In this document: one piece after another, positions 36,915-39,257 of the stretch
How positions within the stretch are numbered: the stretch's first letter is position 1
Layout of the letters: every line of letters starts with the position of its first letter
Source: Actinomycetota bacterium
GTDB lineage: Bacteria; Actinomycetota; Acidimicrobiia; Acidimicrobiales; CADCSY01
Assembly (NCBI GenBank): GCA_019347915.1
Contig: JAHWKL010000006.1
Span: 1-42,980, forward strand
Direction of reading: 5' to 3'
Length of the DNA stretch: 42,980 nt
The notes under the pieces: generated by a model
Told to the model about the DNA's origin: nothing
Database searches by the model: none
What the model saw: only the letters and a program-made list of their open reading frames with translations
Position numbers and translations under genes: made by a program

Positions 36915-37028
36915 GGCAACGGCCTACCCGCCACCCCCGGTTGTTTCACTCCTGCCGGGATGGATGCCGGTGCGGCAGGGGCCCAGATGGGCCACCATGC
37001 CCTCATGGCCACGAGTGGGCCCAGGAAC

Positions 37029-37580
37029 ATGTGGAACCAGGGACCGCCGCCGGCACTCAGGAGGGGTGTGAGGTCGCTCGCCCTTTCTCCCCGGGACCAG
37101 GACCGGCAGCCGGCGGCGGACGGCGGCGTCGAGGTGCTGTTCCGCTCGTCGTACGTCCAGATGGTGCGCCTGGCCACGTTCCTGGTGGGACGTAGCGAGG
37201 TCGCCGAGGAACTGGTCCAGGACGCGTTCGTGAGGGTGGCGCCCAAGCTGTCCTACGTGGAGGCGCCGGCGGCCTACCTGCGGGTGGCGGTGGTCAACGC
37301 CTGCCGGTCGTGGCAGCGCAAGCAGGGCCGGGAGCGCAGTGCCCTCTCGGTGCTGGCCGGGGACCGGGACCAGGCGGTGAGCGACCGGCCCTGCGAGCTC
37401 AGCGACGCCCTGGCCCGGCTCCGCCAGCGCCAACGGGAGGCCATCGTCCTGCGCTACTGGGAGGACCTGCCCGAGGTCGAGATCGCCGCCCTGCTCGGGT
37501 GCCGCCCGGGCACGGTGAAGTCGCTGCTCAGCCGAGGGCTGGCGGCGCTGCGTGAAGAGTTGGGAGATGACGATGCCTGA
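37029..37580 (+). CDS. ECF-type RNA polymerase sigma factor (start uncertain)
   Basis: VEVLFRSSYVQMVRLATFLVGRSEVAEELVQDAFVRVAPKL...RQREAIVLRYWEDLPEVEIAALLGCRPGTVKSLLSRGLAALREEL. Confidence 0.9.
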   Translation: MWNQGPPPALRRGVRSLALSPRDQDRQPAADGGVEVLFRSSYVQMVRLATFLVGRSEVAEELVQDAFVRVAPKLSYVEAPAAYLRVAVVNACRSWQRKQGRERSALSVLAGDRDQAVSDRPCELSDALARLRQRQREAIVLRYWEDLPEVEIAALLGCRPGTVKSLLSRGLAALREELGDDDA

Positions 37581-38529
37581 GCTCGAGAACGAGCTGCGCA
37601 CCCGGCTGCGGCAGGACGCCGAGCGGGTCCGCCCCGACGTGGACGCCGCCTGGTCGGACGTGAGCCGGCGCCTGGGTGCCGCTCCTCCTGCACGGAGCCG
37701 AACGCCGGCATGGCAGCGGCCGTGGTTGACCGCTTCGGTCGCCGCTGCCCTCCTGGCCGTCTTCGCCGCGGTCGTCCTCGTCCCCGGCGACGGGCCCACC
37801 ACCGTGGCCGTGGGCCCAGAGTCCGACTCGGCCGACGAGGCCGGCGACGCCCCCGACCAGGCGGCCCGCATGAGTGCCGACAGCCCCGAGGCGGCCACGC
37901 CTCGACCGACGACCACCTCGGCGCAGCAGGACGGAGAGGCGCCGCCCGAGCGCAGCAGCTACGTCGGCCCCTTCGAGGGCATGTTCCCGGCCGTCACCTG
38001 GGAGACCTACGACCGCCTCCGCCACGAGATGGCCACGGGAAGCCGGGCATGGACCGCCGACCCCGAGCAGGTGGCCACCAGGTTCCTGCAGGAGGTGATC
38101 GGCGCCGAGCCCGACGGCCAGCTCCGCCCGATCGGTGATCAGGTGGCCGAGTACGAGTGGTCGGGCGGGCGCCTGGTCCTCCGGCGCTACGGGCCGCCGG
38201 GCGACCCCTGGGTCGTCACCGCCGCCGACGCCGCCGGCGTCCAGGTCGGCATCGGCGGCTACCGCGGGATGGAGCTGTCCGTCGCCGTCCGCCTGGAGCG
38301 GGCCGGCACGGTCACCGTCAGAACCGGTGCCTTCGACTCCGAGTGGGTGGCGGCCCACACCGACGAGGTCCCCGCCGGCGGCACGACCGAAGCCCGCCTC
38401 CAGGTGGGTCGGGAGGACGCTCCCGGTCCGGACGCCCTGCTCGTGGAGGTCCGGGTGGACTTCGCCGACGGCTCCACCGCCCACGCCCGGTACCGGGCCG
38501 ACGCCATCGGCCCCCCGTCCGGCGACTAG
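37567..38529 (+). CDS. Putative anti-sigma-like membrane protein
   Basis: Overlaps the sigma factor; short cytoplasmic N-terminus, one TM (LTASVAAALLAVFAAVVLV), extracytoplasmic C-terminus. Confidence 0.6.
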   Translation: MTMPELENELRTRLRQDAERVRPDVDAAWSDVSRRLGAAPPARSRTPAWQRPWLTASVAAALLAVFAAVVLVPGDGPTTVAVGPESDSADEAGDAPDQAARMSADSPEAATPRPTTTSAQQDGEAPPERSSYVGPFEGMFPAVTWETYDRLRHEMATGSRAWTADPEQVATRFLQEVIGAEPDGQLRPIGDQVAEYEWSGGRLVLRRYGPPGDPWVVTAADAAGVQVGIGGYRGMELSVAVRLERAGTVTVRTGAFDSEWVAAHTDEVPAGGTTEARLQVGREDAPGPDALLVEVRVDFADGSTAHARYRADAIGPPSGD

Positions 38530-38591
38530 CGCCGGCGGAGGCACCCGCCGGCCCCCGTGCGCCGGGGAGGAGGACCGGGTAGGCCGGGGCC

Positions 38592-39257
38592 ATGGCATCC
38601 CCACCCCAGATCGTCGTCTGGAGCGACTACATCTGACCGTTCTGCTACGTCGCCCTCGAGCGGGCCACGTGGCTGGAGCGCCGGTACGGCGCCGAGATGA
38701 TCTGGCTCCCCTTCGACCTCCATCCCGAGTACCCGCCCGAGGGCATCCCCCGGCAGCGCCTCGAAGCGCGTTACGGGGAGGGGTTCTCCGAGCACGTGCG
38801 ACGGATGATCGAGGGCGTGGGATTCGACCACCGGCCGCCTCCACGGGTCCCCCGGTCTTTGGGCTCCCTCCAGCTGGCCGAGCTGGCGAGGGACGAGGGC
38901 CGCCACGAGGCGGTCCACGCCGGGCTGTTCGCCGCCTACTGGTCACACGGACGGGACATCGGTGACCTGGACGTGCTGGCGGAGGTGGCCGCCGGCGCCG
39001 GCCTCGACCCCGACAAGGCCCGGGAGGTGCTGGAGCAGGGTGCCTTCGCGGATCGCGTCCGGGAGTCGACTGAGGCGGCGCACCGGGTGGGCGTCGACGC
39101 CGTTCCCGCCTGGTTGATCGACCGCTCGCAGCTCATCCTCGGCGCCCAGCCCCACCAGGTCTTCGCCGAGGTCCTCGAGCAGCTCGGTCACGCCCCGCTG
39201 GAGGGTGGTGAGCCGGAGAGGGGCGAGGAGGACCGCCTGGGCCCCCCAGGGCTCTGA
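38592..39257 (+). CDS. DsbA/FrnE-like thiol oxidoreductase with in-frame UGA at the first CxxC position (candidate selenoprotein)
   Basis: ATG at 38592: MASPPQIVVWSDYI-UGA-PFCYVALERATWLERRYGAEMIWLPFDLHPEYPPEGIPRQRLEARYGEGF...VDAVPAWLIDRSQLILGAQPHQVF. UGA at 38634-38636; track ORF begins only at 38697. Confidence 0.7.
38644..38673 (+). promoter_or_regulatory. Candidate bacterial SECIS-like stem-loop downstream of the in-frame UGA
   Basis: GCU-ACGU-C-GCCC-[UCGAGC]-GGGC-C-ACGU-GGC: three blocks of pairs (one U:G) and one C/C mismatch; apical loop begins 20 nt after the A of UGA. Loop does not start with the usual GU. Confidence 0.4.

Follow-up and report, generated by a model that had tools for sequence, protein, structure and literature searches.

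A deep-branching FrnE-like gene of Acidimicrobiia with an in-frame UGA almost certainly read as selenocysteine

DsbA-like selenoproteins were described from the Sargasso Sea in 2005, as nine sequences of COG2761 with a UxxC motif and SECIS-like hairpins (PMC1088965). The GOS data contain two groups of them, with 63 and 18 sequences ('DsbA 1' in the GOS set; PMC2398784), and an inventory of 2026 lists a 'DsbA-like protein form 1' (PF01323, UxxC) next to another thioredoxin-like UxxC selenoprotein, the Rcas_1661 family (PMC13188914). FrnE, in turn, is a cytoplasmic thiol oxidoreductase, and Deinococcus that has lost it is more sensitive to cadmium and diamide (PMC8945050). Literature searches for FrnE together with selenoprotein, and for Acidimicrobi- together with selenocysteine, found no paper on the clade treated below.

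Here, I show that the window, namely the whole stretch of 42,980 nucleotides of actinomycetote DNA that was analysed, encodes on its forward strand (38592 to 39257; 221 amino acids plus stop) a FrnE-like protein of the DsbA family, identified by domain, residue and fold matches, whose frame is interrupted by a single internal stop codon. An earlier note, made from the letters alone, had placed an in-frame TAG at 38580-38582, the start at ATG 38592 and the TGA at 38634-38636, and all these coordinates proved exact. The TGA is codon 15 and is followed by 206 codons and the stop TGA at 39255-39257; codon alignment with homologues puts it, as the note had proposed, where the CxxC motif has its first Cys (U-P-F-C). 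The product is almost certainly a selenocysteine-containing redox enzyme, that is, a selenoprotein in the FrnE-like branch of the DsbA superfamily.

The claim that both sides of the TGA form one DsbA/FrnE-like protein is borne out by a single Pfam DSBA domain spanning residues 6-195 (E=1e-31), the read-through protein scoring 110.5 bits against PF01323 (cut-off 25.6). The resolving Cys of UxxC is intact (Cys18, 38643-38645) and invariant in the aligned family, and the protein has no Cys besides the pair Sec15/Cys18. Also invariant is Pro172 (39105-39107), by its position presumably the cis-Pro which in DsbA/FrnE proteins lies opposite the active site. The full set of invariant residues is S11, D12, U15, P16, C18, P172 and G184, although the invariance around U15 is partly due to the choice of alignment rows, which were picked for the TGA and its neighbours. 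Since the DNA is G+C-rich and the other two frames hold just 2-3 stops, an open downstream frame is weak evidence alone, and the weight is therefore put on conservation. Directly upstream (37005-38529, forward strand) lie an ECF sigma factor gene and, overlapping it, an anti-sigma-like gene. The latter is kept in the sister species of the same genus (71% identity), and in other relatives it did not turn up next to the gene; because it and the downstream genes are common to the sister species only, no operon argument is drawn from the neighbourhood.

As it has the defining features of the DsbA-like UxxC selenoproteins (PF01323/COG2761), namely the Pfam DSBA domain, Sec as first residue of UxxC, a SECIS-like hairpin after the UGA and Cys homologues, the gene belongs to this family known since 2005, of which it is a new, deep-branching member. 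In a comparison by defining features, it differs from the published members in having UPFC instead of UPWC. The window protein and that of the sister species form a deep branch of their own, at 1.2 changes per column; in a quick tree, whose branch support is not bootstrap-based, this long two-member branch lies inside an Acidimicrobiia clade that mixes Sec and Cys proteins. The Rcas_1661 family (NF041057, DsbG-like (seleno)lipoprotein) shares with it the character of a thioredoxin-like UxxC selenoprotein, yet membership was rejected on a partial match of 31.5 bits against a cut-off of 190.

The AlphaFold model, predicted with Cys at position 15, has a pLDDT of 93 and a pTM of 0.89 and places residue 15 just before a helix (16-32), an arrangement proper to thioredoxin-fold enzymes, in which the active-site residue sits just ahead of a helix. 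Its best PDB matches are five entries of Deinococcus FrnE (TM 0.80-0.81) and SCO1869; for FrnE of D. radiodurans (PDB 5CNW/5CO3) and SCO1869 (PDB 3GL5) the fold agrees at TM 0.81 with an rmsd of 2.0-2.2. The same two are the nearest solved structures by sequence (E about 1e-21), and all three proteins share the motif WSD...CP[WF]C, but identity is 28-30% and Sec replaces the first Cys in the window protein. The C-terminal CxxxxC of Deinococcus FrnE is missing, as it is in some true FrnE proteins (PMC8945050). Inspection by eye revealed no N-terminal hydrophobic stretch or signal peptide, for which reason the product is probably cytoplasmic. By analogy with the role of FrnE in Deinococcus, a similar function, with a selenolate as nucleophile, is most likely.

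The earlier note suggested looking for the selenocysteine machinery in the source genome; selA and selB are there, whereas selC and selD were not found in the 86%-complete draft. The note's point that a complete genome lacking selB, selC and selD would speak against its reading is thereby answered in part. selA and selB are adjacent on one contig (G000:C30) and both score above curated cut-offs, as they do in the sister species. Across the order, a selA match accompanies the TGA gene in 17 of 17 genomes, compared with 61 of the 98 genomes taken as a whole (p about 1e-4, with no correction for relatedness). The window's clade has three Cys members, and the genomes of two of them (G006, G071) gave no selA match and no tRNA-Sec above cut-off. 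Formate dehydrogenase is a second, textbook selenoprotein of the same genome: the gene (G000:C45:1681-2418, L230) has a single in-frame TGA in NQARI-U-HSATVPGLG, the canonical Sec site of the enzyme (U-H motif), and a formate dehydrogenase-like gene with a single TGA at this site occurs in the sister as well (G001:C263, L229).

Neither Rfam, nor a covariance model specific to the order (built from 11 tRNA-Sec genes), nor pattern searches found selC in the drafts of the two species. The family has ten other genomes, and nine of these yielded the gene (the exception being G006); in three (G003, G005, G009) it is no more than about 300 bases away from the end of a contig. The sister draft does contain selD (L074, G001:C203:3279-4202). 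Because the two assemblies are drafts of 244-320 contigs and only 86-87% complete, the missing selC is read as a probable assembly gap. The tRNA-Sec candidates of the window's own genome turned out to be tRNA-Ser, Trp, Leu and Tyr, and a sequence on G000:C110 that closely resembles the anticodon arm of tRNA-Sec is not a tRNA. Elsewhere, G003:C69:5550-5564 (L237) holds a copy of the 5' half of tRNA-Sec which diverges past the anticodon arm, the full copy being on another contig; it resembles what an element integrating at selC would leave behind. As a separate observation, many genomes of the order have a selD with one in-frame TGA, SelD presumably being itself a selenoprotein there, and in others selD has none.

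Both species keep selA-selB and Sec genes with no recognisable selC, and hence the genus might decode UGA with a tRNA that has diverged beyond the reach of the tRNA-Sec models, either an unusual tRNA-Sec or an allo-tRNA; this is improbable. Even less is to be expected of a special tRNA with a UCA anticodon that would insert Cys, or some residue other than Sec, at the UGA. The homologues do have Cys at this position, selC is found in neither draft, and the ARAGORN run covered the best candidate loci of the genome, so that it is no whole-genome check for an odd tRNA-UCA; however, the same genome has a selA-selB operon and a Sec-type formate dehydrogenase, and the tRNA-Sec genes of nearly all the other family members point the same way.

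Returning to selenocysteine, this codon is TGA in the sister species too, whose protein is 88% identical. Position 15 was aligned among the 41 best homologues from the same order, a comparison the note had also proposed: it is TGA in 17 (own and sister species and 15 further genomes) and TGC or TGT in 24. Scanning GTDB genomes for WSD[YF]xUPWC gave at least 118 matching stretches; at least 109 of these extend for 130 codons or more, and every one of the 109 matches the window protein (P0001) at E<1e-4, while at least six of the remaining nine listed are truncated where the stored stretch ends. Because the pattern demands UPWC, it leaves out the window's own UPFC form, which makes the survey independent of the window gene. 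The listed matches belong chiefly to Acidimicrobiia, Chloroflexota and Myxococcota. One listed record is labelled Pleurocapsa, a cyanobacterium, and is placed among Chloroflexota in the tree.

It is against this distribution that a pseudogene or a sequencing error, the alternatives raised in the note, must be weighed: a TGC codon would have become TGA by mutation or misreading, and translation would either stop after 14 codons or begin anew at ATG 38697. The step takes one base and the downstream ATG is available, but the sister species and over 100 independent genomes carry the same TGA, which excludes a private event, the frame is otherwise free of stops, and purifying selection acts downstream of the TGA, including on the codons ahead of ATG 38697 (dN/dS between the two congeners over the 201 codons after the TGA is 0.05 by YN00 and 0.2 by NG86); there is thus very little chance that this explanation is correct. 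Likewise, ATG 38697, the start chosen by the ORF finder, loses the active site, as had been remarked, and ATG 38592 is the start instead, because the sister species shares all 20 residues from the TGA to 38697, among them the conserved P-[FW]-C. Finally, the absence of selC and selD from this assembly might mark a remnant gene, no longer expressed after the loss of Sec decoding from the lineage, yet this has next to no probability, for the selA and selB frames are open and intact in both congeners, the selD of the sister is intact and itself contains one in-frame TGA, and the two selenoprotein genes (FrnE-like and formate dehydrogenase) are intact in both species.

A SECIS-like hairpin in the mRNA (38638-38680, forward strand), delimited by RNA folding and family statistics, begins just past the UGA. 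Its core stem (38649-38655 / 38662-38668) has six of seven pairs in the window and seven of seven in the sister species, and the apical loop (38656-38661; UCGAGC in the window, with no G at its first two positions) has its centre some 26 nt away, counted from the first base of the UGA. Taken alone, the window hairpin is not significantly more stable than synonymous shuffles (z -0.64), whereas the fully paired one of the sister is (z -2.64, p 0.017). Under a common criterion (5 or more stem pairs, loop centre 22-30 nt from the UGA), the hairpin is present in 91 of 115 distinct Sec genes, where synonymous shuffles would give 48 +/- 5 (at most 68 in 10,000 simulations), and in 5 of 24 Cys homologues. 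In the xVR subgroup (54 sequences, picked on the protein level) 89% of the helix cells are paired, compared with 36-44% when the helix is slid, and two pairs covary, with two-sided changes in 25 cells vs 6 +/- 5 in shuffles. Total folding energy does not differ between Sec and Cys genes, only the position of the hairpin does, and so the case for the hairpin rests on position and covariation. The suggestion that it favours recoding is therefore sustained by a position-specific signal across the family and by covariation in one subgroup, rather than by the window copy. Taken together, the selenocysteine reading is supported, at the level of sequence, by a TGA conserved over three phyla, Cys/Sec exchange at a single position, selA-selB, a second selenoprotein and the position-specific SECIS-like hairpin.

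On this reading, translation in this actinomycetote of the Acidimicrobiia type would begin at ATG 38592, and the ribosome, on reaching the UGA at 38634, would insert selenocysteine instead of terminating, with SelB and tRNA-Sec directed by the hairpin that starts a few bases further on. The product would be a thioredoxin-fold thiol-disulphide oxidoreductase, probably cytoplasmic and possibly active as a disulphide reductase or isomerase, in which the selenolate of Sec15 would be the attacking residue and Cys18 would resolve the mixed selenenyl-sulphide.

None of the NCBIfam models reaches its cut-off against the window protein, and the active site sits in the portion that ordinary gene finders discard; for these two reasons Sec-FrnE genes are likely annotated as truncated, inactive proteins. 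Among the matches listed, such genes are common in Acidimicrobiia, Chloroflexota and Myxococcota, and some carriers are cultured (Corallococcus, Archangium and Myxococcus). Since such genes are widespread and partly in culture, the Sec and Cys forms that occur naturally within one clade allow a direct test of why a FrnE-type enzyme pays the price of selenium. Two Sec-FrnE paralogues, one on each main branch of the tree, occur together in several genomes of Acidimicrobiia (L136/L126, L191/L153, L199/L160 and L222/L173).
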